Origin: Tubulanus polymorphus
Lineage: Eukaryota > Nemertea > Palaeonemertea > Tubulaniformes > Tubulanidae
Assembly (NCBI RefSeq): GCF_964204645.1
Contig: NC_134035.1
Location: 1,378,001 to 1,442,000 of the forward strand
Direction: 5' to 3'
Length of the DNA stretch: 64,000 nucleotides
Below, one piece after another: positions 3,401 to 36,486 of the stretch (position 1 is its first letter; each line of letters opens with the position of its first letter). A program made the translations under genes and the position numbers. The notes under the pieces are model-generated. The model saw only the letters and a program-made list of their open reading frames with translations, ran no database searches and was not told the DNA's origin.

Positions 3401-3799
3401 TGCTCATCAATCAAAATTCAGTTCAGCTATACATTCATTTCAGTCGAGTTCAGTCTGTAGAGAACAAAGAGAGCCTACATCCGTAAAAGATGTCTCATTG
3501 GTGATCACCCTTTCCCTTGAAGAAGGATGAAGAAGGATGTCCGCATCCAGACAACATCCCTCCCCTGGCCTCAATCTTGGACTTTTTCATGGACAGCCCC
3601 TAAGCTTCATCTTATGCGTAGACTTCATGGTTCAGTGTTGATGATTCTGATTGTGCGATAAACGCACGTTCACCTGACTGAATCCATCAATGTTTTCTTT
3701 TTATAGGAAGTAAAATGTGATGAAGACGACACGTTGCAGCAGATGATTCAAACAGCGGTACAGAAACTGCATACAGCGATTACACCGATCAGATCATAA
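498..3799 (+). CDS. CPSF3: CPSF73 endonuclease, C-terminal half (7 coding exons, 5' part off window)
   Basis: Cleavage and polyadenylation specificity factor subunit 3, the metallo-beta-lactamase/beta-CASP nuclease that cuts pre-mRNA (and histone pre-mRNA) 3' ends in the nucleus. Coding exons read from splice sites and frame: 498-644, 1086-1235, 1341-1449, 1534-1727, 2139-2226, 2740-2903, 3707-3799 (TAA). They join in frame to 314 residues, matching the second half of the ~684-residue family. Exon 1 here encodes [15 protein letters not shown] and exon 2 [10 protein letters not shown]; the two histidines (beta-CASP motifs B and C) are 22 residues apart, as human His396 and His418. Then come [14 protein letters not shown] and the C-terminal dimerisation region used to bind CPSF2/CPSF100. 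All introns are GT-AG, 91-803 bp. The N-terminal HxHxDH metal site must lie left of position 1. Identification is secure; exon ends rest on consensus sites, not transcripts. Confidence 0.96.
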
Positions 3800-5030
3800 T
3801 CAACCTCTCTCCCTCGCCACTCTCTCCCCTCTCTACACGAAGCAATCTTCTTGGAGAGCGTTTTGTAGATAAATGTGTAATGTTTTATTTGAGGAGGTAG
3901 TAGATTATGATGATCATGATTCTGTCTGATATTTTGTATGTGTAAATATTATATTTTGTACATAAATGAAAAATATTGAAAGTGAATAAAAAGATCTTCA
4001 CTGCATTTACATTTATGGGTTTTGCGTTGATTAGATTTTGCGTTACTGGCTACGGTTCTGCTGTTATCTTTGGAACAAGGAATTATCCGATACTAAATAC
4101 ATAAAATATCTTGGTGAAGATCTTTATATTCGCGTAATTTAGATATTTAAATGACGCTGACAATGTCGACGGTGGATGCGGTTGCTGCGGCAACGTTAAG
4201 ATGGTAACGATGATGATGATTATTTAACCGAGGAGGAAGAACATGAATTTATTAAAGCGCTTTTTCTAATGATTTTAATGAGGTTTAATATTGAATTTAG
4301 ACAACCGAGTTTCTTAGGTCATTATTTCTCCCTGCCCTAGTAGAGTTTATATACAAATTTCCGAAAGGGTTTATTTATGAGGATTTGGTGGATGTTAGGC
4401 TCCCCCTTCCTTCTCCATTCAGATTAGATATTTTTGAAATTTACATTTTTCTTATTGACACTTACGTTTTGTAAAATTTGGTGACTCTTTATTTCACGTA
4501 TGTTTAGATATTTCAGTCACGGATTTATTTGGAATCTCAACCTGAATTGAGACAATGAATTCTGAGATATTGGTTTCCCCAATGACTCAAATAGACCGCT
4601 TTCCCCGTGCATGATGTGAGTTAGTATCTCGGGGTGCATGAACTGTCCTTACGTAGTTGTGACTAATAAACTAATTTCATTAGTAAATGTTTACGCGGTT
4701 TCCATGATATGAAGACCTGTGTTGGTATGAATCTTTAACTGAAGTGCTATCGGTCGGTATAATTTATAAATTATTCTAGAATTTAAGAAAAAAAAACAGG
4801 CGGTGGCTGATAAATTCGGAAGTAGCTGTTGGGAATCAAGTAATTTATTTCATGGCCTTATTAAAGTTCCTCCACTATATTGTTCAGCTGACTACTGGCG
4901 TGTATTCAACCTGGCGGCGGTGGAACCTTTCATAATGTAAACCCATTCAACCATAGAGATACACAATTGCGGGCTTTTCAGAGCTGTTGATATCATTCTG
5001 ACACGCGCTATTGAATACGTTACTGGCTGA
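3800..5030. other. CPSF3 3' UTR and intergenic sequence
   Basis: After the CPSF3 poly(A) signal the sequence is AT-rich. I see no coding exon, RNA gene or clear repeat in 4000-5030, apart from short A and T runs. Confidence 0.5.
3985..3990 (+). promoter_or_regulatory. Poly(A) signal of CPSF3
   Basis: AATAAA 186 bases after the CPSF3 stop codon, in an AT-rich 3' UTR and followed by a T/G-rich stretch. It gives a compact 3' UTR of about 200 bases. Confidence 0.75.
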
Positions 5031-5083
5031 CCACGGTGTACACAAGCATAGACCATTCACCTCTGCACACTCACACTGTGAAC

Positions 5084-5473
5084 ATGCTACCGTGGATTCT
5101 CCTCCTGGCGATCTTCGCTGCGCTCCCGCTCCTGCTCCTGTTCCTGCTTCCTGAGGAACGACGTCTTTATGTTTTATGTGTTACTGTTCGTCTCTGTACT
5201 GTCCTGTACTGTTCCGTGTTAATTAATCCGTTCTATTTTTCAGCCATTAACCCGTTTTATTTTTCAGGGCCGATTTCTCTGTCGAATTTCGACGTTTGCT
5301 GGAACAAAACTAATGTCCGAAAGCGTCAGCTCTCCTTCGCCGGTCACGTGTCGAGGATGTCAGACAAAGAGTCGGTCAGGAAATTCTGCCCTCTACACGC
5401 CCTCATACGGAACACGAAAACCAGGATGACGAGGCCTCACTGCCCCCACCTATCTACAAAGTGTGCTGAGTGA
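5084..5473 (+). other. Chimeric ORF: hydrophobic leader joined to a LINE-like tail
   Basis: An ATG at 5084 opens a strongly hydrophobic segment (MLPWILLLAIFAALPLLLL) resembling a signal peptide or membrane anchor. The frame stays open to 5473 through a short internal repeat (INPFYFSAINPFYFSG) and then RKRQLSFAGHVSRM, the R-x-L-x-F-x-G-H-x-x-R pattern found near the C terminus of many LINE ORF2 proteins. The two halves probably have different origins: either a small membrane-protein exon reading into a LINE fragment, or chance. No clear donor site follows the hydrophobic part. The calnexin-like flavour of the leader is too weak to name it. Confidence 0.25.
5300..5450 (+). mobile_element. LINE ORF2 tail fragment (degenerate), + copy
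   Basis: The translation RKRQLSFAGHVSRMSDKES followed by a Thr/Arg-rich stretch matches the conserved tail of RTE/CR1-like LINE ORF2 proteins, where an arginine-rich stretch leads into L-x-F-x-G-H-x-x-R. An inverted, diverged copy lies at about 5925-6075. No reverse-transcriptase domain is present. Confidence 0.5.
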
Positions 5474-5569
5474 TGTCATTGACGGGCATATCTGTGGGAT
5501 TGCGCGGGATACAAATGGAGCGGTTATACTGGATTGTCACGCTACTAGCATTCATTGTGTCCTTGTGAC

Positions 5570-5815
5570 CACCCGGATGAGGGATGATTCTACTGTCACG
5601 CTCTTTGTTTCTGGTATTCTGAGTCGGCTGAGGGATGATTCTACTGTCACGCTCTTTGATTTCTAGTTTGAGTGCTAGTTTTCATTGTGTCCTTGTGATA
5701 ACCTCGGTCAGTGGATGAAGTCTCTCGTCGGCTTGTGAGTGCTAGTTTCATTGTGTCCTTGTGACAACCTCGGTCAGTGGATGAAGTCTCTTGTCACGCT
5801 TTTGGGTGCTAGTTG
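5570..5815 (+). repeat. Short tandem blocks between the LINE fragments
   Basis: Two local duplications are visible. The block GAGGGATGATTCTACTGTCA is present twice (about 5578 and 5629). A ~65-bp block with TTTCATTGTGTCCTTGTGAC and CTCGGTCAGTGGATGAAGTC is repeated at about 5685 and 5745, with a related start at about 5550. Confidence 0.6.
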
Positions 5816-6075
5816 AGATCCTGAATCTCAACCCGGTCAAGCTGGTTGTACTGCGCTATTTGTGTTTCGTGCAATTTTACAGGTGTGTCAGTTACTGACG
5901 TCGCCCAGTACATCCTGCAGTTAGATGGGGAATGTGAGGCGTCGTCATCCTGGTTTTCGCGTTCTGTGTGAGGGCGTGTAGAGGGCAGTATATTCCTGGC
6001 TGGCTCATTGTCTGGTGTTCTGGGCATGTGACCGGCAATGGAGAGCTGTAAAGCTTTCGAACATTAGTTTTGTTC
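5809..6075 (-). mobile_element. LINE ORF2 tail fragment (degenerate), inverted copy
   Basis: Read on the minus strand this gives PDNEPARNILPSTRPHTERE and further sequence, plus upstream bases complementary to 5300-5340 (both contain GGAACAAAACTAATGT). It is the same LINE-tail segment as the + copy but diverged, so the two form an imperfect inverted pair about 350 bp apart. It has stops upstream and is a relic. Confidence 0.45.
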
Positions 6076-6117
6076 CGTACCAGGTTTTCATCGCTCTTCT
6101 CTTTTTTTTCATTTCAG

Positions 6118-6204
6118 GACTCCCAAGATGAAGAAGAAGATGCTGAAGGCGACTACAGAAGATGGCGAAAAAAGAACACTGAACTCAGCAATATTGAAAG
6201 TTAA
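6118..6204 (+). CDS. Possible terminal coding exon of an unidentified small protein
   Basis: A pyrimidine-rich tract ending TTTCAG at 6117 is followed by 28 open codons and TAA at 6202-6204. They encode an acidic then basic tail, DSQDEEEDAEGDYRRWRKKN followed by TELSNIES. One other frame is also open, so the phase is not proven. No convincing upstream partner exon is found; the hydrophobic ORF at 5084 is the nearest candidate. I cannot name a homologue. Confidence 0.3.
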   Translation, partial: DSQDEEEDAEGDYRRWRKKNTELSNIES

Positions 6205-6499
6205 GTTGATACACATGTAAATTACGATGTATGATACAGAAAGGATTGTGTAACTACATAATATCGTTCTTTTACTCATTTCCGGTTAATCCAGAAAGGC
6301 CCATTTAAAATCTGCCCACCAGAAGTGCCCACAAAAGACTCCACGTTGAATGAACCAAACACCGAAAGTCCTGCCGCAACCGAACCTGGCAGTCTCATCC
6401 TGCATGGCAAAAGGAATGCATACATACATAAAGCTAAGTTGATTTTTCATATCTGGGGTAGAATGCATAGGCACTGGTGAGGAGAGACACGCTGGTCGA

Positions 6500-9180
6500 G
6501 CTCACCATCTCCGCACTACTTTATTGAAGCTCTATGGCCGGTATATTGTTAAAAGTAAATTGAAATATAGCTAGGGCAATGATTGCTTGAATATTTACAA
6601 GGCGAAATGATTGAGTGAGGTCCCTTGAATATTCTTTGGTCTGATAATTAAAATGTAGATTGGTCAGTTATTGATTAAAAGATTTTTTAAGTATGTACAA
6701 TTAAGGTAAATTCAATATCTTATGAAATTTTCTGAATCTACCGTAGATATTTCAGGCCTCATATGACTATTGTTTAACTGACAATCAAGATATAGATAGG
6801 ACAATTTACTAATTAACCAATCGCTTAGATATTAGCAATTATTCAATATCTTATAATGTTTGATGAGAAATTCTTCAGGTGTAGATATTTTAGGGCCCCG
6901 TATACATTTAGGCTGGCTTTACTTGTAAAGATCTAAATCAATCAAATTCATCGTCAGTTAATAGTTTTTTTTACAAATAGTTTATTGATACATTTATAAA
7001 CATTCAGGCACTTTACAGTATATATTATGTGCTGCTTTACCCATTGCATTAATGAATTTCTGGGGGAAAGATGTATAAAATAGTGTCTAGGGCTCTATCG
7101 AGATCTGGTGTAATATATATATGGGGAAATCTATGGACTGCGGGTTTTTCAGAAACCTTGATTAGGTCTCACCACTTTGATAAATCTAGAATAAAACAAA
7201 GCTTTAATTGGTTCAAAACATTCCACAGAGCCATACTTTTGCCTTGTTTTGCGCTATGATTATTATTTAACTGAAAATTATCATGTATATATAGCTAGGA
7301 CAAGTTGCTCATTAACCAATGGCTTAGATATCCACAATTAAGTTGAATTTAGTATTTCATGTAAGATCAAAAACTATTAATATGTAATACAGGTCCATAA
7401 TATAAATGTTGTTAAACTGAAAATTTAAATATAGCTGATATATGTATGAGCACATCTGAATCAGTCTCATCGACTGATCAGTATTTACATCTCCAACTGC
7501 CGTGCTTACGGCCACTGGTCTTGGTCTTCAATATTGCCAAAATTTACCAAAACTTTACTGATTCATCAAAAAGCCATACTGTGTGCCAAGTTACGCATAA
7601 TAGATATTGTTTAACTGACAATTAGAATCAAAGGTGAATAACACATTAATGTATTACTATAAGATATATATGATTAAGGTAAATTCAATATGTTATTTGA
7701 AATTGTTTTTAATTCAGGTCCATGTACATTTAAAATGTAGCTGATACATGTGTATCTGAGCACATTTATTTATCTGTATCTAAGTATTGTGTCTTCATAC
7801 AGCTGTATTAGTTTTGATACATATTGCCAAAATCATTTCACGCAGATTTACTTGCGATCGAAGGGAGATGAAACAAATCTGTACGTGCACAAATACATTC
7901 CTGAATTTGGAAGGGAGAATATTTCAATTTCGCTGTGTATGTCGGATTGAAAGCCTTATTCTGACAGGATATCCTAAACTTAGGTCTTATTCCTCTTGCT
8001 AATAGCTCTCTTTTATTAACCCCTCTCCTTCAAACTATTTTCTAGCATCATGTCTTGCACCGCACCAGGGAGGTCCGGTCATAACAAGGTCTTTCGGTCC
8101 TTATACACAGTGTGCTACTATAAAAGGGAAATAAAGATTATATAGCAATTCGGCTTTAAGGGAATTTCTAATTAACCACTTAAATGTGCTTTTATCTTAA
8201 TTTCTGATGAATTCATAATAGTGATGAATTCCCCACATCTGAAATCCAACTCATGAAGATTTTCAGGCTCCGTGTTCAACTGACTATTAAAATGTAGCTA
8301 GTATGATTACTAATTAACGGATCGCTTAGATATCTAAAAGATTAATTAGAATTAATTCAATGTAATGAATATAAGTGAAAAGTATTTAAAAAATAGTGCA
8401 GTGGATGAGACGACTGTATCGTGCAATGTCACCTGCGTCATGACTGGGCGACATGTGTGTGGGATCTGTTGAATCAGGTTTTGGGGAATACTGTATTCGT
8501 CAAACTATATATCAAAAGCTCTGATGCAAAATCAGCATTTCGAAATAGTGATCAATCGAAATCAGATCTGAAATTCTTGTCGTGTAGAAATATCAAGCCC
8601 CGTATAAAACATTGTCAGAGACAATTTTAATTATAGCTAGGAAATTAATTGAGTGATTAGGTATCTAAGATGAAGATTAATTCAGCATCTTCATATAAGG
8701 TAAAAGTGCTCAAATCTAAACCGTAGGGGTTGATAAGAAAACTGTAAGTATAAGAAGCTGTAAATATGCAGCTGTAAACTGTAAATATAAGAAGCAATAT
8801 TTAGAATTACTGGAATGGATTAGAATAACATTCACTGGGCACAGATGTCACCACCTATGGGTAGAAAACATATCTCTTCAAGTTTATTAACTGAAGTTAG
8901 TTTGATAATACGAACATGGTTTAGCTGACAATCGAAATGTATATAGGGAAACAGTACAAAAACAATTTGATAAGATTGATTATGCATTACTAAATTTGTT
9001 GTAACTCTGGTATTCCTAGAGATGACTATAGATGCTTTAGTCGAATTTTTTTTAAACTATAATAATCAACCGTTGCATAGATATCTAGAATATAGATGAA
9101 TTACGATATGAGTTGAATTTCATACAGATATTGTTTAATAATTGACTATTATCAAAATCTACTTACCGGTCCACATCGCT
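6500..9180. repeat. Degenerate AT-rich repeat field
   Basis: Variants of one set of phrases recur in the same order at irregular spacing (100-500 bp): TATAGCTAGGACAA, then ATTAACCAATCGCTTAGATA, then AATTCAATATCTTAT, then CTTCAGGTGTAGATATTT, then GTTTAACTGACAATC. Examples lie near 6560, 6790, 7290, 7430, 7610, 8295, 8630 and 8935. No ORF looks coding. It is probably an old, decayed tandem array. Confidence 0.55.
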
Positions 9181-19743: not shown

Positions 19744-22700
19744 ATGCGTACTAACGGCAGCGGAGTCACTAATCAGCAAATCAATCCCGGTCATATCGGA
19801 ATTCATGGACAAAGTGCACGTCAAAACAACGTGTCGAAGTCCACCAGCAGCAGTCATAGTCCTCAAACTTGCTGCGGTTATTCTCAATCCCATCAGACGC
19901 AGTTATTAGAATCGGTCGCCGCCGCTAAAAACACTAACATCATTACAAATATCATGGATCAAAGCGATTGTGCTGTTCGCACGAACGACGCGGTTCCCGA
20001 GGAAATTCGACAGAAAGGATATCAATTTTGTCGCGAGTTTCTCGGAGGTGTTTGGTGTCAAATCGATCCGAGTGCTATTGATATTCGACCGGTTTGGTAA
20101 GTCAAAAGTGCGAGTTAGTCAGTTAGAAACTTTGATTTATCTCCAATAGGCCTCCTTGTCCGTGTCATCGCAAATTGGCAAATTAAGTCGCGAAGTTTAG
20201 CACCCAAATAATCACAGGGAGTCAAAAGTTATTGATTTTGAATCCCTACTAGACCTCCTGATATTTAATTTTTTGAAATAAACATTTCTGTGTAGGGGGA
20301 ATGAAAGTGCAAGAGTGTTGTTAGGTTATTATAGGCTAACAATTACTGTCTGCGTTTTAGAGTGGTAAAACTAAGCAGGCAAGTGGCAACAACTTTAAAA
20401 GAAATGTTTAATTTTTCAAGCATTTACGATGTTATAGAAGTCCTCAGAATATTCAATTGAGGATAAGGGTCTAAAGGGTATAGATAGGGTCTAAAGAGTG
20501 AGGGTAAGAGTAAGGTTTAAGTGGAGTGCTATAAGTGAAACATTAGGTGGAAAATCACAGCGAAAATCAAGAAATTCTGAACCATTTCTTTAAAATCAGG
20601 GGATAAAGAAGAAGTCGAGCAAATTTCAAATTTCTGATGTCTTCTTGTAACGAGTGGCATTATAAGGGACTTAGTGATAAGAAACAGCCTCCACTGAGGA
20701 TGATTTCCTGATGAACCCTGTAATGACTCAGGTTAAGGTTGTAATGAATCTCGCAGGTTTAACCTCTCCACTGAAAACACATTTATATAGGCCTATGCAG
20801 AGCTAGTTTTAGATCTCTCAGGTCTTAAGTTATTATTGAGTTGTTTGTATCATATACATATCATTCAACATAGAATGCAGATTGTGAGATAGGTCTATAT
20901 TGCTCTCATATTTGTCTAGACCTGTTAGTTAGGGATTTAGTCTTGGGCCTATCGTGGCCCTGTGGGTCGAGGTGGGGGTCAGTGGCAGTCCAGAAGGCAA
21001 TTTGGGGGTTCGAACCCTCCTTTTCTGAACAAGTGCCCTTTTGAAATCCACTCGATCTAAACGTTTTATCTCCTGTAAAGATCTTGATCTAAAATATGCA
21101 CTAAAATCGTATGAAAATGAACGTAAATCTGGCGTAGGATCCACTGCAAGCATTTCCCCCTGTGGCGCTCCTCGGGCCCCGGCCCTGACTAGATGCCCTT
21201 TTCATGTGAAATGAATTTCATCTCAAATGATCCGAATAAAGCGGGTTTTACCCACTATACTTATCAAGACATGTTTCTATCACTCGAGGCTCGATATAGG
21301 GCGTAAAAAAACTGGCATTTTTTACCATATAACTGTGTAATGTTTTTCATATATCGCCTTCTGGCAACTATTAATGAGCTTATTGTAAATATCTGGCCTG
21401 TGATATTCTCGATCACCAGCTGGCAAAGGAAAGATCAATATCTTCGAGTTCATTGTCCGTATTTCTATCGACAAAGATGTAGTGAATAGAATAGTAACGT
21501 CTTAATGCATTGATTTCTAATCAATCTTGTCCTCGCGAGTCTCTCCCCCCTCCTCACGAGGACGACTAGACCATTCGCCTTTTGTATTAATTACGTCTGA
21601 TGCAGTTCGAGGTCAACCTATTGTTTTTCGGACATGTGTCGTCCGTGAATCTCTTTGTCGAGGGGGTCTGGGATGATTAATCTGGTTGTCTATACCACCA
21701 GGGGCTGATGAAGGCTGGAAGGAAGGAAATTAATCTAATTATCATATTTTACATATATATTTACTTATGTATTGTGTGGATAGTAAGTAATATCTGAATT
21801 AGATCAAAATCCGGGTTAAACTGATTTGCAGCATTTTCAAGCTGAAGATACGTGCGCTAAACACAAACTGTTATTGTATTTTCTGATCCCCTTGATCCCC
21901 GCAGTGGTCGGTTTAAGTTTGACTCAATTATTGATGGTGTCTGATATTTTGACCATTGAGTCGAATCTTAACCAACAACTCATGGATTGCGTCTAGAAGT
22001 TCACAGTATAATAGCTTCACTGTACAGTACGTACAGTATGTACAGTATGTACAGTATGTACATACTGTTGTATACTGTTTTATTCGATTTTTATGGATAT
22101 TAAAAGACCACAATGTATATATTCCTATTCATTTACATGTATAATCAAAAAAATTTTCAATGAGGGTTCGTAAAAGGGTCAGAGTAAGAGTTCAGCGTTA
22201 GAGTATAAGGTTCAGGTTGAGGGCTATGTATGAATTCCGGTGGTTGTAGAAAGCTGCACTAAGCACGCAGTATGTGATGGGTTCAAATCCTGATTTTTAC
22301 CATTAAATGATGTGTTGTTATCGAAGGGGCTCTGTTTGAGTCAATATAAACGGTTTAATAATGAAATGATTACGATGTTGTTTGATAATTTCAGCGGTGG
22401 TTTGAGTAATCTACTCTACCTGTGTTCGTTGCCCGATGACGTCAGCCCGAGGAACGGTGAACCGCGTCGCGCTCTGCTGCGTATTTACGGTCAGTTGTTG
22501 CAGGAATGCATGGACACGGTGGTCGTCGATTCTGTGATATTCGCGCTGTTGTCCGAAAAGCGTCTCGGACCGAAACTGTACGGCGTATTTCCGGGCGGTC
22601 GCGTCGAAGAGTACATTCCAGTGAGTATCAACTCGTTCGACGCGTAGCAAAACATTGATATTTTTTTGCCTGTGACGAGAGAAATCCCACAATAACGAAG

Positions 22701-25700
22701 CCAAGATTGAAAAAATTCTATATCAGAATGATTGTATTTGAGGAGCGACGTTTCGGCTAACAACTGTTAGCCATCATCAGGCGTACTCAAATTCTAATCA
22801 TTCTGATATAGAATTTTTCAATCTTGGCTTCGTTATTGTGGGATTTCTCTCGTCATCATCGTACACGGATATTGTGTATCTTCTCGTCTAATTTTTTGCC
22901 TGTGTTTTTGTGGCTTTTTCTGCGCTGCAAAAAGCATATTCTGATAGTCGAAATGCTGCCCAATTGTACCTGCATGGCGGCAGGAACGTTACAGAGTCTC
23001 ATGATGCCATCAGTTTCAGTTCCCGCGAGGGAGGAATGTGCCAGAGTATCACGGTGCATCGAAGTTGGTTCTGTTCTGTGAGGGAGTAATTTAACGGGGT
23101 CTCATCGGGTTCAAATCCCTGTGAACAGGATCATTGTGGAGTCACGTGATGCATACCATCAAATCCCCCTGCGCAATGGATGATAATGATATTTTTATTT
23201 ACAGTCGAGAAGTTTAACTACGAAAGAGTTACAAGATCCGGACATATCGGGATACATCGCGAGAATCATGCGAAATTTCCACTCATTAGACATGCCGTTA
23301 TCGAAGGAACCGCGATGGATTTTCGATTTGACCGATAAGTGAGTGTTTGAGAAAAAAAATTACGTCACGTATGTGACGACCAATGTCTATTGCGGTTTCT
23401 CTCGAAATCTGAAGTGAATGAAGTTTTTCGAAAATGAACCTTAGATTTGACAATACATTTCTCTATTTCATGGCCTAATCATAAGAAAATGATGGGAACA
23501 TATCTTTATACTCTGGAAAAAATGTTGACATTGGTTGTTAAGAACCCTTAACCCGTTCAGTGCTGACTAATCAATGCCTTTAAGTGCTGGAGATAATTTT
23601 AAAGAATTCGGCCCCGGTGTGTTGAACACTACTGGCGCACCACTGTAGCGGGTCAACACAGGTGCTGCCATCTTTCATTAGATAATAACATCAATACATG
23701 GCAGTGCGGTGTACCAGTACGTTGTGTATCACTGATTTATACGCTGCACTGTGGTGTAGACGCGCTGAAAGGGTTCAAAGTGCAAAATTTCACCTGAGTT
23801 TTGATGCTTGATGACGTTTTTTTTTTTTTAATGGCGACGATATTTTTCCAGGTGGATCAAAGAATGTCGCGAGTTCACGCCGGAAAATCGCGCGAAGAAT
23901 CTTCAGCAGACGAGTTCGAATCGGGTCCAGCGACCGACCACCGAACAATACGTGAAACTGATGTCTTATAATTACGAAGAGGAATTCGAATGGCTCAGGT
24001 ATGTCAGGTATCAGTCACTGGTCTCGCTCATCGGTCCGCGGTTCTAATCAGTGCAGGGTAGCCACTCAACTTGAAATCAGGGGCCAGTTGCGCAGTCGTG
24101 ACTTAATTCCAAAAGTTGTTAGATTGTCTATAGAACTAAGTTGGTCTTAGACTGGTCTTAGGTCTAAGCCATGACTATGCAACCGGCCGCTGGGATACAA
24201 TCAGCTTTTCTTTTAAGTCTGGGAATAGACAAAGAATTTTTTTTAAAAAAGCTAAAAGTCAAGAGGAAAACGCAAGAATATTAAGGCTTTTGAATGATGT
24301 GAATGAAATATGTCAATTTTGCCTTGCAAAAATGCTTAGAAAGTGCTCAATTTTCCCTAAGCCTTATTGCTATGAACCCTGCTGTTATACGAGCTTACCC
24401 CCCAAAAAAATGAATTACGATCATAGTTAATGAATAAGCGTCCCAATTTCTGGGACAGTTATAAGAGATTGGTCAGTTGGTGACTGAGAGTTTCGAAAAT
24501 CCCAGACAGACTTCGTAGGTTGGTTCTAAATACGGAACAAGAGAAGGAGTTCATTCAATATTCATATCACGTTTCGTCTTGTCTCGCTGAATAGACGTTG
24601 ATGTTCTCGCAGCTGTCTCCTCTTGCTCTGCGTATATTTTTTTTAAAAAGCCACATATTGTTGTAATTGTTTGAACGGTCTTTCTTTCCAACCTAGTCAT
24701 CGAGTATTTCAGACCATTAATTTACATAATAGGAAATGAATAGAACAATAACAACAACTTAGTCAATATCTGGAATAAATGAATTACGGCGTTTAAAACT
24801 TTTGAACAGAGTTTCGGCTGAGTAAAATTGAAATTGATAGAATTAGTAGGCGGGCCTTGTTGCGACCTGCCCTTTGACATTGTTCAACGGTCATATTTAT
24901 TACGTTAAGTTATTACGTAATATTTATGCCAAATCAGGAAAACTCGTCCAAACAACAAGAATCAGATCCCTCAGATGAGACTTGAAAAGAATGATATAAA
25001 GTCGACTTTATTCTAATACTGTCTATACTTTAATCATAAGGCTGAAATAAAACGATACCTTGTTTCTCCTAATCGGCTAGGTCATTTTGTAAACCGCAGT
25101 AAAATTTGTAATCAGCTCATTTCTAGGCCGCCGGCTGTGTCAACTTTTAAACATAGCAGAAATGAGAAACAAAGTATACATTTTTTCTAGCCTAAAATGG
25201 AATATCATTCTATTATTATCACGTAGACAGATTGCACTAAATCTATATCAATATTTCAATCATTCTTTACTGATGATAAAATGATAAGTGAAGACATTAT
25301 ACATGTGCATTATGATGACGATATCAATCTCAATAAATTGTTTTTTAGTATGTGGAAAATCACGAACAACCTAGAGGCCTATATTAAATCGCGATCACCT
25401 CACATGTTAATCGTGAAAGGTTTTGGTCACAGCTGAACTAAACACATGTCACTCAATCCGAATTTATTGATTTAGGTAGTGATATTAGTATCCTCTCAAC
25501 CGGTATTTCAGTAGCCGTGACCATCTGTCCTTCCCGACTGATTCTAGGCATACCGTACGCGATTTCTGATGTAACATTCGACATTTCTGAACTCGAAATA
25601 AACCTTTGTATTCATTATTGGTTTTTGTAGGCAAACTTTGTTGCTGGTGAAATCTCCTGTGGTTTTCTGTCATAATGATTTCCAAGAAGGTACGTATAAA

Positions 25701-28700
25701 TGTATATATTGAGATAACATTGCGTCATGTGTTACCGTCTCGTTAAAACGGCGTTCATACGTGATCCAACCCCTGGATGCTTACCGGGTTTCTCCCTAAA
25801 TTTGCATCTTTCATGGCTTATTTCTTCAAAGATATCTTACACTTAGGATGGGACCTTTGACATGGTTGCATTATTTTAAAAATACCTTTCCGTTCTTATC
25901 AGTATTAAAATGGTTTTTGTTATATGTTGAATCGAGGACATTATCTATGAAATAAAGTGCAAGCCATCGGAATTTTAAATAGTCATAGAAAGCCATTATG
26001 ACAGATATCAGGGCACCGAATTTCTAAATCTGCTGGTGTATGTGTATATGTTAATTATGAACCTTGTCAACAATGATGTCACAGCATGTCGTTATGTCTG
26101 TCTGTCTGTCAATCGCGAGCTGCCTGAATTAAGATGATGTTGGTAGTGAACAGTATGGTGAATATTGTCTTCTAGTCAAATCATCAACTGATTTGTTTCT
26201 GAGTATCATCTCATTACAGCTTTCAACTGCCGGCCTTAGATTGTTCACTGAAGAGATTAACTCTTAAAGGTTTCGTTGTTTCTGGAGTCCATTTTCCCAA
26301 TTGCACATCCATGATTTCTACTGGTGAAAGAATTCCGCCTAACCGCGCGGAGCCCTGGCCTAGTTCAACTGCCCCCCTTCCCCGACTGGACTGAAAAACT
26401 GATTCTGCTGTCACTAAAACATATAAAACGCATAACATTTTTTTTCTCGAATTTCAATAACAGCTTTTATTTGAATTAAAAAAATTGGTCGATTATTGTA
26501 AAGAATAGATGTCGACGTAAAGAGAGAGCTTACACAGCTGTTTTGTACCCGTTGAATGACGTTGATATATTTATTCATCAGTTCGAAAATCAATTTTACA
26601 AAACGATATAAAATGTCATGAAATTGTTTTAACGTCACGCGCGTGTTCTACTAATATTGACGCGAAAAACCGTTTTCATTGTTCGACATTTTGATAAACT
26701 AGATTTATCATTTATTATGATTCGTAATTTTTAGCTGAGAAATACTGATTTGTGAAAATATACAATAGTGTGACTGAAGAGAGTCTTAAGCCAAACGCAT
26801 ACGACAGGCGGATCTAGAAAGGAAAGGATCTATGAAAATTGGATAGCCCCGGTCCAGAAGAAAAGAAAAAGGCATTTTTCAGATAAAATGCTAGCCATGT
26901 CGAAGGCCACTGGCAGGGTCCCATCCTCGATATTAGATATCTTTTGAAGAAATTAACCCGAAAATATGCAATATCCAAGAGAATGACAATATGCCGGTTT
27001 TATCAGTTTTTGACGTGATGAAAAGGCCAACCCCAACGAGAAGGCAATGGCCGGATACCCGGGAACAACCCCTGAAATATTAGATGCTATAGAACATCCC
27101 CTAGAATATTAGATGCTAAAATATTGGACGCTATCGAACACCCCCTGAAATATTAGATGCTATGGATGCCTCTAAATTTGTTTCTAATTGCAGAAACCTA
27201 GATTTCAGTTGCAGACCTGGGTTGGGTATGACTACTACTATCTGAGAGTAGTTTCTACTCATTTTAAGAGCTCAATTACTTCCAAAAATGTCACTCAGAA
27301 TCAGAATAATTTGTAGTTCACTATTTGGTACGCAGGTCTGCAGTTGGTCTCACACCATTGTTTTCAAAACCATGCTGCTATTCATCTAATATAATTTTCT
27401 AAACCATATGTTTATGTATAAATGTTATATCGCACGTTATGTAGACATGTCGCATATTTCTATCGATAGTTACACTGTCGAGATTTCAGGCGACATTTCC
27501 TATGAAACTCGTATCCTGAGAGCGTGTTTTGAACTTTGCTTTCCGGCGAAATAAAAGGCGCTTTACGCGATAACAATTGTCATTCAATCGTTCGTTTTTT
27601 CTATTCGTAGGTAATATCCTATACTTGCCCGGCACCGATGGCAACAGTGATTTCGAATTGATGCCGATTGATTTCGAATATTGCGGTTATAACTACAGGT
27701 AAATATTTAGTTTCGTAGTTACAACTCGTATGAATGTGTAACGGCTTCAGTTATCTGTCGTATTATATCGTATTATTACAGGGTTTGTATTACTCCATTT
27801 AAAAATTCTAGATTCCGCGAAAACTCTTCTCAATTGACGGCCGCACATCTCCTCTAAATATTTGAGAAATTAAACGCTGAACCTGGTCGATTTTCGTTAG
27901 AATCAATTTTTTTAAATGCAAATCTCCCTATGAGATATGAGATCAAATCACACTTAGTAGCACGGAAATGCCTCTTAGATTAATTACTGCTGCAGATTTT
28001 TGTGATATCAGAAAACTCAAAAATTACTATGTAAACATTCTCAAATTTTCACTCAAGAGGTGTTTGGAAGCAACAATAATACAGTGATACTCGTGTCACT
28101 GAATCCGTCTTTTGAAATCATGAAATCTTCGCTAATCTCACTTAAATTGATCGTTGTTCCAGTAAAACTTGTTCTAAGTCGGAATGAATTTCTAGGCCTC
28201 GAATTTCCCAGTTCGTTTTCCGACTTACGCAAGTTTTACTGTCGTACACGTGAAATTCTCGTGATAATCTCGTTTGATTACGCCTTAACCGAATCTGTAC
28301 TGGACATCAGCGCTTAACACTAAGATCTAAGACAATTTTTGGTTCTTTCCTCAAAAGGACTGGATGTGTGTTTTTAACCACTTGAGTACCACCGGGTGAA
28401 ATGTGGGTCGCTACACCGGGTTATTGTTAAACTGCCTGGTATTGATGGGTGTTCATTGATCGTTTACTGCGTGCGGTTGCCACTCTCCTCAAGATTTTGA
28501 TACAGAGGGCACCACTATCGTTGAACTATAAGTACAGTAAAAGTCGTTTATAACGCCGCTGTTGGAACTGACACTATAACACATTTGACATTATAACGAA
28601 TATGTGTTAAAGACAATGGTGTTTTCATTAAATTTGAGTTAGATTTGACAAATCTGTTCTCTGAGAAATGTTTACGTTATCAAATGGGTTTAGATTCGAA

Positions 28701-31700
28701 TTTTCAAAGCAATATGAGCGGGAAAGCTTTCGATAGAACATGCAAAATGTTAGAAACTTGAGGACTATAGTGATTTAACTAATTGATTTCCTAGAGTCGA
28801 AATTCACGAAAAAAGCTGCGGGGATTCCTGTGTTAAACGTGACCTGGTACTCAAGAGGTTAAATCCATCATACGATTAACATCGAAATGATAAGAACCCG
28901 AGCAGACGGACGGACGGATCGGGACCGTCCGGCGGGGACCCCCTCTCCTGTCTAATCTATGTGTCGATGTATGTTAACGTTTTTGTAGAGGATTTGATAT
29001 CGGCAATCATTTCTGCGAGTGGGCGATCGACTACAAGGTCGACGTGCCACCGTTTTACGAGTTTGACGCCGATGGTTACCCGTCGAAGGATCAACAGGTA
29101 ACGAATACAACAGACAATAACAAAAAACAAACGTGTAAAACCACTTCACCGCTCTCCTCTCTCCTCTCTCTTTCTCGATATTATTTCGATATCGAGTTGA
29201 ACCCGGTTGCGAGAGAATATGATTTCGTGTTCGAATATTTGCCGAAGAAACATGGCCGAAATAATCGAGTCTCGAAAAATGCCAATCAAAATATACGCTG
29301 AGGGCCTGATTTGAACATTGACCCTGCAGAGGGGGTTGGTTTTATTGATCAACTGAGGGGGGGGGGGTGGTTTCGTTCGCCAGTTTCAACTCAAACTCGG
29401 GGTTTATTCGTTCACTTTGTGGCTTCATATTCTACATTGTCTATCATGGAATTATCGATTGTATTGTTGATTTAATAGATAGTTCAGCTTTTTCTAATAA
29501 CACTGTAATTGGTTGCGGCATGATGCGTTCAGTTGTACCCCACTTGTAACATCGTTTTTAATGCAGTGTCCACAACTGAAACTGAATTCGGTTATTTTCG
29601 ATGATTTAGTTCATTGCTGATGAAACGTGACTATACGCATGAAGTCTACGCTGCAGATGACGCACGTTGCTCGGATATCCGCGAAGCCATCAAGCTAGAA
29701 ACAGTTAAAGCAGAAGCCCTCTCTGTTTTAAATCCAAAGCCCACCACACACTAGCGACAACCAGCGTACTGAGTTCATCGGCGACATTGACGCCAAAAAC
29801 AATTCACCTGGGCTGGGTTTCATAGATGTGGAAGAAAAATAGTCCCCGGGAACATTTTGAAATTTGTCAGTTATTACCATGGTTTCTCATTGTAACCATG
29901 GTGGTTGTTACCTAGATTGAGGATTTACCCCTAGGGATAACTTTGATACTCAGTCTATGAAACCAGGCCCTGCGCTCTAACTTAGCGTACTGCGTCTGTC
30001 GCTATTGTCAATCATGTGATCAGTCAATCCAATGATATACTCGACTCACGGGTATCTGACTAAATCTGACGGCGAGTAGCTGAATAACACACAGATTCGG
30101 CATATTTGTTACGTCTCAAAAAATTGAAGTGAAAATAACAGTTGAAAATGTGACTAGGTGAATTCTATGCCAGTGAATTTGTTGTGAGGTACTTGGTTAC
30201 AATGCCACATATCGAAGTGGAACCGCGCGCTAGGCGTATTTGTCATGGCGTACTTGTTGCTAGTGTGCGACCACCGGCTTAAGTCGCTCCCATTAACTAT
30301 CCACTAGGTCCGTCTGGTTGGTTATAGCTGCAACTGCACGCATTGTTGCGAACAGTTTCAGTGTAAGACTCGATACTGGGTACTGGACCCTTTTCTCGGT
30401 TTTGGAAAAGGTCTCTCGTGAAATACGGATATGTTGTTTAATAGAAAATCACTTCACCGTCAACTGATTTGGACTCTGCTGTATCCTTTAGACTAGTCGA
30501 CTGTACTATACTATATCTCGTAGTGTTAGTGATGCGGCGCATTTGAAATGAATTTTTTTGGTTGCCGTGGTGCGGTGTACTAGTAAATCCCTCACCAATC
30601 TATACACCGTACTGCAGTATAGATGCACTGAAAGGGTAAAGGAGGGGAAAGGTTACTCTCTGCATGAAAATAAGTCGCAAACATGCGCTGGTTCATTTCG
30701 GCATAGTGGCTGAATATGCGTCGCGATGTGGCGGTGAAGGTGATAAAACGCGACCTATTGAAATAAAAAACCCTACATATCCGTATAAAACCTGTTTCTA
30801 TCGACGAAAATTCATAAAAAACGTGTGCGTTATCGGATGAATTACGGTCATCAACTATCCGGGATAGCGTGTTTACGGCAGCAGCAGCAGCAGCAGCAGC
30901 GTGGTAGAAGTGTGATTACGTTGTCTATTCTAATGTTGTCGGTGGTTTTTTTTCGTTTCAGGGGCTGCGAAATCGGTAATCACTTTTGCGAGTGGTTGTT
31001 CGACTACAACACGACCGGCGCGAATAATAAATCATTTCTCTTCAATCCCAATTGGTTTCCGTCGAGACAACAGCAGGTATTCATTTCCCCGCCGGCCCTC
31101 GAGCCCGAGGCAGGCTTGGCTCTTTTTTGGGGTGATTTTAGTTGCTGATCACAACTGAGTCTTTCAGCGGCACTCATTTATCAATTCCGAACATTTGAAA
31201 TGTATATTCTGATGTAGAATCCCACGCTAATGATCAAATATCATATATTTGTCAACTCAGTTTTCTTGAAGGTGACATTTAGGCTAAGAAAACAACGTGC
31301 TTCGTGAAATAAACATCTTGCTAACGCAAGAGATTAACTGACAGAAAGAGCCAAATCCTCTGGGGCCGGTTCCATAGTCAAGACTTAAGACCAAAAGTGG
31401 TCTTAAATCTTATAGATTGGCTCTAGAACTAAGTTGGTTTTAGACTGGTCTTAACCTGCCAAATCCTCTCATCAATTAACTTGTGAATTTCTATTTTTGA
31501 AATTACAACTTTGGCATCGATTATATTTTTCACCAATTTCTTGTGTTTCAATAGATGCAATGATAATGATCGTGATACTGTGAATTATATACGCTGAGCC
31601 TGTAACCTGACGGCCGTAAACGGCAACTAAAATCACCCGCAAGTCGCCGCCAGCCTCAGCTTTACGCTTGCACGTCACAGCTCACAACTCTTCTTCTACT

Positions 31701-34700
31701 CACGTGTGTATATATCTGTTGAGATGTGTCGCAAAAATCGTCGATTTCAATAATAATGTGATTTCTCGTTATTATACCAGGTAGTAATAACAATACGGTC
31801 CCTATGACTCCTTGATTCCTTGAAAACTCATTCGAAATGGAGAATGCTTTTCAAGCTGCTCGAAACTCCTTTAATTCGAACAAAATGCCAAATATTCCTT
31901 TAAAACTTATTCGATTTCGAGAAATAGGCAATGAGAAGTTGTACTGTAGACTACACCTAAATCGATACAGTTGGAAACAGGATCTTTTTCTTACAATATT
32001 AAGTGGTTTACAAATAAGAAACTGAGTTTTAGACGTGTCAAGGATGTAAATTTGCTCACAAAACCACCGAATTAATGGTTTTATTGAGATAAGCAAGTAC
32101 CGATTTAGGAATCTACAGTTATTTGGATATGAAAGTGATGCACACGCTTCCTCGAAATTTGAAATTTTTCCTTTAAAACTCTTTATATCAAGGAATGATT
32201 GATTTGTAGGGACTCTGTATATCGTGCTATACTAGGGGAATCGTTCTTCTAGTGTTCTGTACACAGTGGATCTGCCTACCAGTGCTGGCCTACTTTCAGA
32301 ATGATACCGATTATCGTTTCAAACCAGCCAAAAACTACTCAAACAAATTGGCAAATCCCTTGTGAGGCAGATCTGCTGGTTTGTGATATGTTTGTTTCAT
32401 CGATGTCCACTTCATCAAGTTTTAAAAGCGTTGAAAAACCGCGTTCGACCAATAATTCATTAGAATTCCAGTTACTGCTATCAGCATTCTTGTGTCTTTG
32501 ACGTTTTCTGTAAATTGGCGAAAGTAATTTGTATTTGGTGTTAGGCTCGTTCATCTGATGTAATTAGTTCAAGTCCCAGGAGCCGTGCGAGTGTTATACT
32601 GTGGAACTGGGCTCATTAGGTCAGGGTCATTCTGTGTCAGTCGGTTTTTCCTTGATTAATGCGGATGAATCTTTTAGGGGGAATTAATTCGACATGTTGC
32701 TTATTGTCAATGACTGATATATTTGCTGTAGGGACAATAGTTGGAAGAGAGTTTGAACGTAGAACATGATGTAAGAAACTACCAGGGGACCTCATCGCTG
32801 CGACGAATTCCAGGGAACCAGAAAATCTGTTTGTTATACGTTCATTATAACCTGTAGTTCTGGAACAGTGCAACCTCATTAAAATGAACTTCAAGTTTCC
32901 AGAAATCAGTTTGTTATAACTGTAGCCACGCCCAGCATTTTAGGCAAAGGCCAATCTGGGCCAAATCATCTCCGTGTGATCACGGCTCATACGCAGTGGT
33001 CGAAAACTTCAAGATACCCAAAAAGGCACTTGATAGCAAGACTTAATGAGCAGGAGCAGGAGCAGATGATCGGATAGACCTTGCTCTGTATGCAGATGTT
33101 TGTGAACAATACGATTTGTTCCCTGTGAACATTAACTGCTGGACCCAGTTCCACAGTTGTGAGTTAGAGTTAACTGAGTTAAAGTTAGTTCATTTTCAAT
33201 GATTTAACTCAGAGTTAGATCTTAACTCGGAATTATCGAACTGGGCCCCGGTGATCACTCCCAGCGGTCACTCCCAATCCGCAGCTCCATAAGAATGTCC
33301 ACGTATTTGTGATACAGATGTCATATTCTAACAGATGTCATATTCTAACGTAGACACGTGTCATTGATTTGTGATTGATATAGGAGATGCAGCTTGGAGT
33401 AGTTACTCAAGTGTATTACTTGCACTAGGTAACACGTGTTCCTAATTGCTGACGACGTAACCGTAACCGTGGTGAACATTTAACAACCGCAAAATTGAGA
33501 CCCAAATCGGGAGCCAGTTCCGCAGCTGTTCGTTATGGTTGACAACTAGATTAAATCAATTTTCATGGCATGGTTTTATAACTTAACCGTTTCACTGCAA
33601 ACAAGTTGAATTGGGTCCTGTATTTCTATGGGATGAATTGGGTCCTGTATTTCTATGGGATGAATTGGGTCCTGTATTTCTATGGGATGAATTGGGTCCT
33701 GTATTTCTATGGGATGAATTGGGTCCTGTATTTCTATGGGATGATTTGGGTCCTGTATTTCTATGGGATGATTTGGGTCCTGTATTTCTATGGGATGATT
33801 TGGGTCCTGTATTTCTATGGGATGAATTGGGTCCTGTATTTCTATGGGATGAATTGGGTCCTGTATTTCTATGGGATGATTTCACAAATCGATGAAGCAA
33901 ATAGCGTGTGTATTATGTTTAAGCGTCGTCTATGCTGTATTCTGCACAAATCTTCGTAACAAATTAACATTGATTTCTTTCTTCCTTTTTACAGGATGAT
34001 TCTGATTCGTAATAATGTCGCAAATATTACTAATCAATTATCGATAAACGATACTATAAACATTTCAGGAACATGTATTACTGATATTATATACAGCTGC
34101 GTTCTGCATGTTCCTTTTCCCAATCATGGTCAATCAACAGCGAACTGATTTTCAATCAGTCTCCACTCGGTTTACGCGGTTCTCGAATACATTTTACTCT
34201 TGATTTAGAATTATTTTCAATTCCAATGTTTTAACCCTGGGCAGATCTGATTACGACTACTATTCGAGAGTAGTTTCTCCTTTTTGGGAGATAGGAAAAT
34301 ATTCTTAAAAATCTGAATAATTACAAATTCATTTTCAATGAAACTGCATGTACTATCATTGAGAGAAACCCAAAATTTCATTTTTAACAACTGGTTTTTT
34401 TTCTTATGTTTCCAATGGAATCCTTGAATCCATCTTCGGAGATAATCTGAAAAAAATTCAAATTTCATTGTATATTCTCTCAATGGTATTATCAAGACTG
34501 GAAATAGTCTCAACTATTAAAAATACATGTAATATTTTCAGTGTTAATTTACTCTGATTTTTGTTGATGACTTTATATTGATTAGCGACTTGTAGTCTGG
34601 TCTGCTTAGGTTAAAATCTCAACTGGGAACCGTGAAACTGGGTTCTGATTGTTTGGGTTTGAAGCTTCGTTCATTATTGTTTTTAAATGATTTTTGCTTG

Positions 34701-36486
34701 TTGTAAGTTTTAGTTGCTTGTATACAATTAATGTGCGTAGAATTATTCAGTTCATGTAGGCTTCGTAGTTAATTCTGCACCGAGGTCAAAATGTTATTCC
34801 TGGGTCTATTCATCCTCCCTCTGCAGGGATTTGAACCTGATGGCATCGCTACACTCAGCCACGGCACAAAACCTTGCCACACTAGACCGGGTGCGCGGCT
34901 ATATGCGCAGGTTTACCGCATGAAAACTAGCTGCACCAATCAGATTGCCTGTTTTATTATAATTGCTGAGGCAATTTCATGGATAAACTATAAACGGCAA
35001 AAAAACCTGAGCGATAATAAAACGGGATTTCTGATTGGCTAATAATGACATTATCTACGCTGCACATGTAGCTGTGCACACGGTCTAGTGTGGCAGGGTT
35101 TCATACTGTGGCGATATCGATGCCATCAGGTTCAATCAGGACGGGGTCAACTTTGCCCTTGGTCCGAAAAAAATCCCGTGAAGTTGATTACATGTGAATT
35201 TGGTTTATATTTTCATAATTCTTGAAATAATTTTCGTCGATTTCGAATTCGTCGATGATAAAAACGTTTTATTTTCTGACGATTTTTCGATTAGGTACAT
35301 TTCGTGAAGGAATACTTGAAGGCGAATCGCGGCTCGAATTGCGCCGATCCCGGAGATGAAGAGATCGAGAATATTCTCGTTGAAGCGAACACGTTCGGTT
35401 TAGCCTCTCACTTTATGTGGGTTCTCTGGTCACTGATACAATACAACATATCATCAATAGAATTCGATTATTTGGTACGTAGAATATTATTTGTTAACCC
35501 TTTCAGTGCGTCTACACCGCAGTGCGGTGTACGAATCAGTGATGGATTTTGCTAGTACACCGCACTGTGGTGTATTGATTTAATTAGTAATTACTAATTA
35601 TCTCTCTTGAAAGATGGCAGCACCTGTCAAACATAGTGAAATATTAGTAACTAACGATATACCGCGCCAGGGTGTAGACGCACTATAGTGGTATTCCCGT
35701 TAAAATTTTCAAATTATCTCCAGCACTATAAGGTATTTATTAGTCAGCACTGAAAGGGTTAAACTACCATATGTTGCTCTCTAGACCCTGCACCGCCTTT
35801 CAGATATTCGATATTAACTTCATCCCCGTCCTTCAGATTTCCGATCATCCACACTTCACTTCTGTGTTAAGAGCTTCATCCGATACATGTCTAATTGAAA
35901 ATGAACTGTCAACACACAACTTGACATTTTACGGGCACACTTTCAAAAACTGATCCTCCACACATGTGTTCAACACTTCAACTGAGATATTTTTGATTGA
36001 AAATGAACTACGATACTGATCACCAGGATCCAGTTCCACTCATGAGTTGAGATTAGTCCCTTTCAATGTTTTAACTCAAACTGGAACTTAACTTAACTTG
36101 GAACTGTGGAACTGGATCCAAGACTTCAAAAGTTATTGTCTGAAGGGATGCAGGTCAAAAAATTCAAATACATTCTTAGGGTTCTGAGCCAGATTCCACA
36201 GTTGTGACTGAGTTAGAGTTAACTTTTGAGTTAGAATCAGTTCATTTTCAATGTTTTAACTCTAGAATCAAATTTAACTCAGAACTGTGGAACTGGATCC
36301 TGAATTTGGCCAACTAGTCTTTATCTCACAAACAACCACGAGTCTACTGACATGTTTTTTGTTTTCTAATTTCAGGAATACGCGGAAGTTCGACTGGACT
36401 GCTATTACCAGTTGAAGAATAATCTGCCGATATTGCGAAATCAAGAAGGTGCTTACGGTAAAAATGGCGGCGAGACCGACGACTGA
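19744..36486 (+). CDS. CHKA/CHKB-like: Choline/ethanolamine kinase with duplicated exon 7
   Basis: Phosphorylates choline (probably also ethanolamine) with ATP, the first step of the cytosolic Kennedy pathway to phosphatidylcholine. Coding exons: 19744-20096, 22395-22620, 23205-23338, 23852-23998, 25631-25689, 27611-27698, then either 28989-29097 or 30962-31076, then 35295-35474 and 36376-36486 (TGA). The sums are 1407 or 1413 nt, giving 468 or 470 residues. Residues 1-75 are polar and low-complexity. Then come GGLSNLLYLCSLPDD, LGPKLYGVFPGGRVEEYIP, the Brenner motif VVFCHNDFQEG (Asp303), the metal-binding MPIDFEY (Asp327), IGNHFCEW (Glu346) with DY (Tyr351), and SHFMWVLW (Trp414, Trp417). All sit exactly 3, or for the Trp pair 6, below the human CHKA numbers I remember (306, 330, 349, 354, 420, 423). 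ATG 19744 is the first in-frame ATG. All introns are GT-AG. Confidence 0.96.
20097..22394 (+). other. Choline kinase intron 1
   Basis: 2.3 kb. Mostly unique AT-rich sequence. A short tandem of GTACAGTAT units lies at 22021-22065. GGGGGTTCGAACCCTCC at about 21003 resembles a tRNA B-box but has no matching A-box. Confidence 0.6.
22672..22855. mobile_element. Foldback element with hammerhead-like core (intron 2)
   Basis: Two ~66-bp arms are near-perfect inverted repeats; the left arm starts TGACGAGAGAAATCCCACAA and the right arm ends with its complement. They enclose a ~50-base centre. On the minus strand the centre reads CTGATGA, a 7-bp stem GGCTAAC/GTTAGCC with loop AGTT, then GAAAC. The element begins 51 bases after exon 2. 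Confidence 0.85.
22750..22780 (-). ncRNA. Hammerhead-ribozyme-like core
   Basis: CUGAUGA, perfect 7-bp stem II, and GAAAC fit the conserved catalytic core of hammerhead ribozymes such as those carried by Penelope-like elements and related non-autonomous retroelements. Stems I and III with a cleavage triplet cannot be assigned confidently here, so activity is not claimed. Confidence 0.5.
23552..23773. mobile_element. TTAA-flanked miniature element, copy 1 (intron 3)
   Basis: TTAA then CCCGTTCAGTGCTGACTAAT at the left; GCGCTGAAAGGG then TTCA (a decayed TTAA) at the right. The inside shares GGTGCTGCCATCTTTCATTA and GCACTGTGGTGTAGACGCG with the better-preserved copy at 35498-35758. A piggyBac-derived MITE is the likely origin. 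Confidence 0.7.
23999..25630 (+). other. Choline kinase intron 4
   Basis: Besides the palindromic element at its start, a block near 25052-25190 (ACCTTGTTTCTCCTAATCGG ... GTCAACTTTTAAACATAGCA) is shared with CPSF3 intron sequence at about 806-960 and with 58020-58190. This indicates another dispersed miniature family with CGGCCGGGTC-like ends. Confidence 0.5.
24080..24187. repeat. Palindromic miniature element, GGCCGGTTGCATAGTC family, copy 2
   Basis: Begins GGGGCCAGTTGCGCAGTCGT and ends CATGACTATGCAACCGGCC, with CTAAGACC-type repeats inside; lies just downstream of exon 4. Confidence 0.65.
25690..27610 (+). other. Choline kinase intron 5
   Basis: 1.9 kb. A small tandem of GAATATTAGATGCTA(T)(A/G) phrases lies at 27068-27170. 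Otherwise no supported feature. Confidence 0.5.
28130..28250. repeat. Foldback in intron 6
   Basis: AGTAAAACTTGTTCTAAGTC at about 28160 is answered by GACTTACGCAAGTTTTACTG at about 28222. The 85-codon ORF across this region is a by-product of the palindrome. Confidence 0.55.
28378..28858. mobile_element. TTAA-flanked miniature element upstream of exon 7a
   Basis: TTAA at 28374-28377 and at 28859-28862 flank termini CCACTTGAGTACCA and TGGTACTCAAGAGG (imperfect inverted repeats). The TTAA target duplication is the piggyBac signature. It holds no ORF and includes AAAGTCGTTTATAACGCCGC, a phrase also found near 36820. Confidence 0.65.
28989..29097 (+). CDS. Choline kinase alternative exon 7a
   Basis: Acceptor TTTTTGTAG, donor CAG|GTAACG, 109 nt, entering after two bases of a codon (AG|A, Arg336) and leaving at a codon boundary. 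It encodes 36 further residues, beginning GFDIGNHFCEWAIDY and ending GYPSKDQQ. The GFDIGNHFCEW start and the Y-P-x-K-x-Q-Q end agree with vertebrate choline kinase, so this copy is the more ancestral-looking. A TTAA-flanked miniature element ends 126 bp upstream. Confidence 0.93.
29809..29972. repeat. Palindromic element between exons 7a and 7b
   Basis: Ends GGGCTGGGTTTCATAGA and GTCTATGAAACCAGGCCC are complementary; the inside contains the small palindrome ACCATGGTTTCTCATTGTAA / CCATGGT. It belongs with the 40911-41117 pair. It could bring the two alternative exons into a different RNA context, but that is speculation. Confidence 0.65.
30880..30901 (+). repeat. (CAG)7 tract upstream of exon 7b
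   Basis: Seven CAG units about 60 bases before the exon 7b acceptor. The reading frame through it (polyGln) is open from an ATG at 30837 into exon 7b, so an intron-retaining or alternative-first-exon product would be in frame; nothing else supports one. Confidence 0.85.
30962..31076 (+). CDS. Choline kinase alternative exon 7b
   Basis: Acceptor TTTTTTTTCGTTTCAG, donor CAG|GTATTC, 115 nt, with exactly the same entry and exit phase as 7a. It encodes 38 further residues, beginning GCEIGNHFCEWLFDY and ending NWFPSRQQQ. It shares IGNHFCEW, DY, P-S and QQ with 7a but differs at most other places and is two residues longer. No stop, intact splice sites and conserved core residues argue that it is functional, not a relic. 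Confidence 0.92.
31362..31460. repeat. Palindromic miniature element, GGCCGGTTGCATAGTC family, copy 3
   Basis: Begins CTCTGGGGCCGGTTCCATAG, closely matching positions 53-72, with ACTTAAGACC and GACTGGTCTTAA inside; the right end is partly lost. Confidence 0.6.
33129..33251. repeat. Palindromic miniature element, CAGTTCCACAG family, copy 2
   Basis: GGACCCAGTTCCACAGTTGT ... TTATCGAACTGGGCCCC, with GAGTTAGAGTTAACT and AACTCAGAGTTAGAT arms and the family centre TTCATTTTCAATGATT. Confidence 0.7.
33603..33880 (+). repeat. 27-bp minisatellite, 10 copies
   Basis: Ten near-identical units of TGA(A/T)TTGGGTCCTGTATT plus TCTATGGGA in kinase intron 7. Because 27 is a multiple of three and the unit lacks stops in several frames, it creates long artificial ORFs on both strands (for example repeated MNWVLYFYG). 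The only variation is A/T at one site: units 6-8 carry T and the rest A. Confidence 0.97.
34811..35140. mobile_element. Long-TIR miniature element, copy 1
   Basis: About 330 bp with ends CATCCTCCCTCTGCAGGGAT ... and TGCCATCAGGTTCAATCAGG (right end damaged). The inner blocks CCAATCAGATTGCC and TTTCTGATTGGCTAATAATG are shared with 58502-58785. Confidence 0.75.
35498..35758. mobile_element. TTAA-flanked piggyBac-like MITE, copy 2 (intron 8)
   Basis: TTAA (35494-35497) then CCCTTTCAGTGCGTCTACAC at the left; AGTCAGCACTGAAAGGG then TTAA (35759-35762) at the right. The terminal inverted repeat CCCTTTCAGTGC and the exact TTAA duplication are typical of piggyBac. It starts 24 bases after kinase exon 8. 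Confidence 0.85.
36022..36301. repeat. Palindromic miniature elements, CAGTTCCACAG family, copies 3 and 4
   Basis: Two adjacent copies, about 36022-36121 and 36186-36301, each ending GAACTGTGGAACTGGATCC and sharing the centre TTCAATGTTTTAACTC. They lie just before the last kinase exon. Confidence 0.75.

Follow-up and report, generated by a model that had tools for sequence, protein, structure and literature searches.

The window analysed here is a 64-kb stretch of DNA (C11:1378001-1442000) from a 268-Mb assembly of 77 contigs, which to judge by introns and gene content is probably that of an animal. The window carries a choline kinase gene on the + strand at 19744-36486, whose exons we placed by splice sites and translation:

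19744..20096, + strand: exon 1, from the splice model and translation; opens with ATG, the probable exact start codon
22395..22620, + strand: exon 2
23205..23338, + strand: exon 3
23852..23998, + strand: exon 4, in part aligned to CHKA
25631..25689, + strand: exon 5, with an HND motif that we take, from the role of this motif, to be catalytic
27611..27698, + strand: exon 6, its translation ending in ...IDFEYCGYNY(R)
28989..29097, + strand: exon 7a, putative choline pocket lid; 109 nt, 36 aa plus a split codon
30962..31076, + strand: exon 7b, putative alternative lid; 115 nt, 38 aa plus a split codon
35295..35474, + strand: exon 8
36376..36486, + strand: exon 9, ending in the stop TGA

The two versions of exon 7 sit between exon 6 (end 27698) and exon 8 (start 35295). 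Splicing through 7a gives isoform A of 468 aa and splicing through 7b gives isoform B of 470 aa, both of them open. The original prediction had described two non-identical copies of exon 7 lying 1.86 kb apart on one strand between the same neighbours, with good splice sites, equal phases and no stop. On re-derivation of the gene model, the coordinates and phases of 7a and 7b and the isoform lengths (468/470) matched exactly. The spacing between the copies is 1,864 bases (29098-30961), and both exons are stop-free and bounded by AG acceptors and GT donors.

The main route to phosphatidylcholine begins with choline kinase. The translated gene contains a Choline_kinase domain together with the HND, DFEY and NHFCEW motifs. 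The Pfam family PF01633 (Choline_kinase) scores 325 bits against isoform A and 298 bits against isoform B; of the exon peptides taken singly, 7a matches the same family at 42 bits and 7b gives no Pfam match at E 0.001. Structure-sequence matches, computed on isoforms from which the first 70 residues had been removed, gave 363 bits for isoform A with human CHKA (2cko), 357 with CHKB (3feg) and 261 with the C. elegans choline kinase (1nw1), and 348, 342 and 232 bits, respectively, for isoform B. The locus had been assigned to the choline/ethanolamine kinases. With human CHKA and CHKB as the closest solved structures, its product is by sequence of choline kinase type, and either isoform may be active.

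A second family gene is found 3.5 Mb away on the minus strand (C11:4891311-4894902), and from its motif we take it to be an ethanolamine kinase. Its NHFCEW region is encoded in a single open frame, uninterrupted by an intron at the position of the exon 6/exon 7 junction. A tblastn search (E up to 1) of the surrounding 9.5 kb (C11:4887001-4896500, within which the gene occupies about 3100-7900) returned one copy of the motif.

The 7a and 7b peptides are identical at 16/38 positions (BLASTP, E = 1e-10 in a single two-sequence comparison), and their DNA is 59% identical over 36 aligned codons. Local alignment of the DNA reaches a score of 47; 500 dinucleotide shuffles averaged 14.8 and never exceeded 22. 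Searched against the whole genome, 7b finds 7a at E 0.003 and 7a finds 7b at E 0.004, in each case among the best candidates scored. The other matches with E up to 10, again among the best candidates scored, are the motif of the second family gene for 7a (E 0.115) and a place on C7 for 7b (E 3.5).

WebScipio recognizes candidate mutually exclusive exons by similar length, the same splice-site phase, homology, adjacency between constitutive exons and a size of at least 15 aa (PMC3228551). We scanned the gene with our own script, which is modelled on this rule and is not WebScipio itself. Candidates were stop-free AG...GT/GC segments of the adjoining introns that share the phases of the query and differ from it in length by no more than 20 aa; each was given a BLOSUM62 score relative to that of the query against itself (the self-score), with a cut-off of 15%. 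For exon 7a, 7/197 candidates reached at least 15%; all seven overlap 7b, and the best is exactly 30962-31076, at 0.396. None of the 293 intron candidates pooled from exons 2, 3, 4, 5, 6 and 8 reached 15% of self-score, nor did any of 472 reverse-strand decoys for the seven exons (best decoy 0.149). The pair has lengths of 36 and 38 aa (within 20 aa of each other, each at least 15 aa), shared phases with AG/GT splice sites at both exons, and homology at 0.396 of self-score, where at least 15% is asked.

The tandem position of 7a and 7b would also suit a partial second copy of the kinase gene within the intron, to which 7b would belong, or an assembly error. We regard this as extremely improbable: tblastn of both isoforms against the 64-kb window (E below 1) recovered exon 7 twice but each other exon once, the copies have no more than the 59% identity given above, and their flanks align over only ~35-40 nt upstream.

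The reading frame constrains how the two exons can be used. Exon 6 stops after the second base of a codon; 7a and 7b each supply the third base first and end at a codon boundary, and exon 8 begins with a whole codon. Because 109 nt and 115 nt each leave a remainder of 1 on division by three, exactly one exon 7 keeps the frame between exons 6 and 8. Joint inclusion of 7a and 7b shifts the frame and leads to a stop at codon 378, 277 nt upstream of the last junction, and skipping of exon 7 altogether leads to a frameshift and a stop at codon 340, 167 nt upstream of the last junction. As judged by reading frame, no full-length product comes from transcripts with both exons or neither; these are out of frame and stop early, and therefore only single-choice transcripts yield the full-length enzyme. 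We infer that transcripts with both or neither exon undergo decay.

That both frameshifted transcripts stop well upstream of the last junction would also fit a pair that is not strictly exclusive, in which including both exons, or skipping both, is a regulated way of breaking the frame that lowers kinase output via decay. Such use overlaps with the explanation that we prefer, exclusive choice between 7a and 7b. We consider it rather unlikely, and no sequence feature demands it.

The splice sites of both exons are good. By U1 pairing energy, the donor of 7a (CAG/GTAACG) ranks in the best 0.5% and that of 7b (CAG/GTATTC) in the best 1.0% of the GTs in the gene span. Of the acceptors, ranked by an ad hoc score, that of 7a is in the top 7.4% of AGs and that of 7b in the top 1.1%, inside the range of the other exons. 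Exons 6, 7a and 7b have donors without a G at +5, unlike the other six, in a small sample. Donors without a +5 G are often found at regulated exons. The intron ends that precede the two acceptors are as follows:

28949..28988, + strand: intron end upstream of 7a, with TGTCTAATCT at -40 to -31; alignable with the 7b intron end
30922..30961, + strand: intron end upstream of 7b, with TGTCTATTCT at -40 to -31, then a pyrimidine-rich tract

These upstream introns can be aligned over the ~35-40 nt before the acceptors, and their similarity was matched by 1/500 shuffles when 60 nt were compared and by 7/500 when 200 nt were compared. The resemblance is suggestive only, because the tested stretch was picked after the similarity had been noticed. 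The downstream intron flanks of 7a and 7b are no more similar than shuffled sequence (424/500 shuffles as good). The motif TGTCTA(A/T)TCT, chosen post hoc, has two exact matches in the window, both at -40 to -31 of 7a and 7b, and 20 matches with one mismatch against 12.4 expected; it probably overlaps plausible branch points. Introns on either side of exclusive exons are known to tend towards weak mutual similarity (PMC6071210). A search, by a single kind of test, for a common RNA docking site that would pair the shared upstream elements with the introns gave no excess (39/60 shuffles as good), and the intron inverted repeats (the 25 longest of 26) were not counted as evidence.

A GCA triplet repeat of seven units (30878-30898) lies ~60 nt 5′ of the 7b acceptor, and given this closeness, variation in its length could influence the use of 7b. 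The intron between 7b and exon 8 contains a minisatellite of ~10 near-identical 27-nt units (33607-33879, 99% matches) and, ~160 nt before exon 8, nested inverted repeats with arms of 21, 53 and 25 nt (34831-35135). A perfect inverted repeat with 42-nt arms and an inner 23-nt pair (22673-22855) lies in the intron after exon 2. This repeat and the nested one are perhaps mobile-element hairpins.

Aligned to 2cko, exon 7 spans the NHFCEW segment and continues as far as the next QQ, and by this alignment it would encode the loop alpha7-alpha8, the lid over the choline pocket. The loop in human CK-alpha2 has ~21 residues and covers the choline pocket; its Tyr354, conserved in eukaryotic choline kinases, stacks on or contacts the quaternary amine, and a comparison of bacterial LicA with the human enzyme led to the proposal that substrate specificity and activity depend on this loop (PMC4364537). 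Tyr354 also touches an inhibitor within the pocket, and Phe361 touches the outer part of the inhibitor (PMC4814829). We place the equivalent of Tyr354 at the Tyr of DY, which is the sole Tyr there common to CHKA, CHKB, 7a and 7b. Glu349, a choline contact, is presumably the Glu of NHFCEW, and Phe361 presumably the first following Phe.

The conserved Glu and Tyr are kept in both 7a and 7b. The pocket-aligned Phe is kept in 7a; at this place 7b is longer by two residues, with its Phe residues shifted out of position. A Phe-Asp pair in CHKA, CHKB and 7a is Cys-Glu in 7b and Tyr-Asp in the second family gene. The exon 7 region of human CHKA and CHKB aligns gap-free to 7a, with 20/36 residues identical in each, whereas against the same two proteins 7b is two residues longer and has 16/38 identical in each, with Cys-Glu in place of Phe-Asp. 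The 7b lid thus looks like a working but altered one, and it is possible that it causes a loss of activity. The pair may be old, 7b being equally far from 7a and from human CHKA/CHKB (16/38) and 7a closer to the human proteins (20/36), a picture that faster change of 7b would produce identically. Dating of the duplication from these comparisons was rejected, as the sequences are too short.

We estimated selection on the pair by pairwise codon maximum likelihood (ML) on 36 aligned codons under three gap placements, with kappa set to 2 and F3x4 frequencies taken from the gene itself. Omega for 7a versus 7b is 0.03, 0.16 and 0.17 for the three placements, with omega = 1 rejected at p 0.0025, 0.0035 and 0.0011, respectively; the first 15 codons alone give omega 0.14 (p 0.015). 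An NG86 estimate (pS 0.83, pN 0.31) was set aside in favour of codon ML as unsafe and inflated, because only 6/16 codons for identical residues differ. Neutral evolution of the pair is rejected, and neutral evolution of 7b alone is only modestly disfavoured: with 7b evolving neutrally and the constraint on 7a allowed to be complete, the model lies 2.0, 1.4 and 2.1 lnL units below the best for the three placements, without counting the avoidance of stops and the absence of frame-breaking indels, which this model ignores.

That margin of only 1.4-2.1 lnL units leaves some room for a decaying, unused duplicate, so that 7b would be a pseudo-exon and the gene would make the 7a protein only. The Cys-Glu that replaces the Phe-Asp of 7a, CHKA and CHKB and the displaced pocket-aligned Phe point the same way. 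Decay is nevertheless hard to reconcile with 38 stop-free codons, intact splice sites and a sole length difference of 6 nt that is in frame. In a simulation of neutral change at 40% divergence, 16% of copies stayed stop-free and 1.2% were stop-free with at least 16 identical residues as well; this last share was 13.9% at 30% divergence and 0.04% at 47%. The observed divergence of 7a and 7b is 41%, and the simulation is a strict case in that it assigns all divergence to 7b. Third-position GC is also alike in the two exons (0.67 in 7a, 0.63 in 7b), in a surrounding 4-kb block with a GC of 0.41. Taken with these observations, an unused 7b is improbable.

In the explanation that we favour, exon 7 was tandemly duplicated, and exon 6 would be joined to either 7a or 7b and then to exon 8, with exclusivity enforced at least by the reading frame. 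Two enzymes identical in the remainder of the kinase would result, each with its own lid over the choline pocket, and the lid swap would most likely tune substrate affinity or choice. We put the probability that the locus is a choline kinase gene with a mutually exclusive exon 7 pair, both exons being used, at roughly 0.8. The reading as a mutually exclusive pair, made in the original prediction, is supported by equal phase, similar length, homology, good splice sites and the reading frame, and by the purifying selection seen for 7a and 7b together. Tentatively, and at somewhat less than even odds, the swap may yield two kinases that differ in substrate choice or strength (e.g. choline versus another amino-alcohol), or a full enzyme with a weak partner that tunes the dimer. 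If true, such a splicing switch would amount to a natural experiment in the control of substrate choice and rate by this loop, and a lipid-metabolism enzyme would be added to the genes with exclusive exons.

Screens for exclusive exons give a measure of how far a prediction of this kind can be trusted. On the Drosophila X chromosome, 90/16,180 exons not annotated as exclusive, counted per transcript, shared the features of exclusive exons (PMC3228551). In a looser screen of human genes, out of 6,541 candidates RNA-seq validated 855 when three reads were required and 1,399 when one was, with junction data missing for many (PMC5740500), and because only that many were validated, prediction alone is not proof of exclusive exons. 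Our searches of the open PMC literature turned up no exclusive exons in choline kinase. The two phrases, choline kinase and exclusive exon, co-occur in a lipin 1 splicing study and in a cancer metabolism review. The word choline is absent from the main texts of PMC3228551, PMC5740500 and PMC9741552, and the exclusive-exon phrase did not occur in lophotrochozoan literature among the matches listed. Within the literature searched, we rate 7a and 7b as a new choline kinase case of a well-known kind of splicing.

All of the WebScipio features of homologous mutually exclusive exons (PMC3228551) are common to 7a and 7b; what differs is the host gene. Another parallel is offered by the tandem exons of FYN (PMC9741552). 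FYN is a tyrosine kinase in which the exons encode another part of the fold and the splicing is known, whereas that of the choline kinase pair is predicted. In FYN, as in the gene described here, two homologous exclusive exons of a kinase reach the active site, at its ATP-binding part in FYN and, as aligned here, at the lid of the choline pocket.
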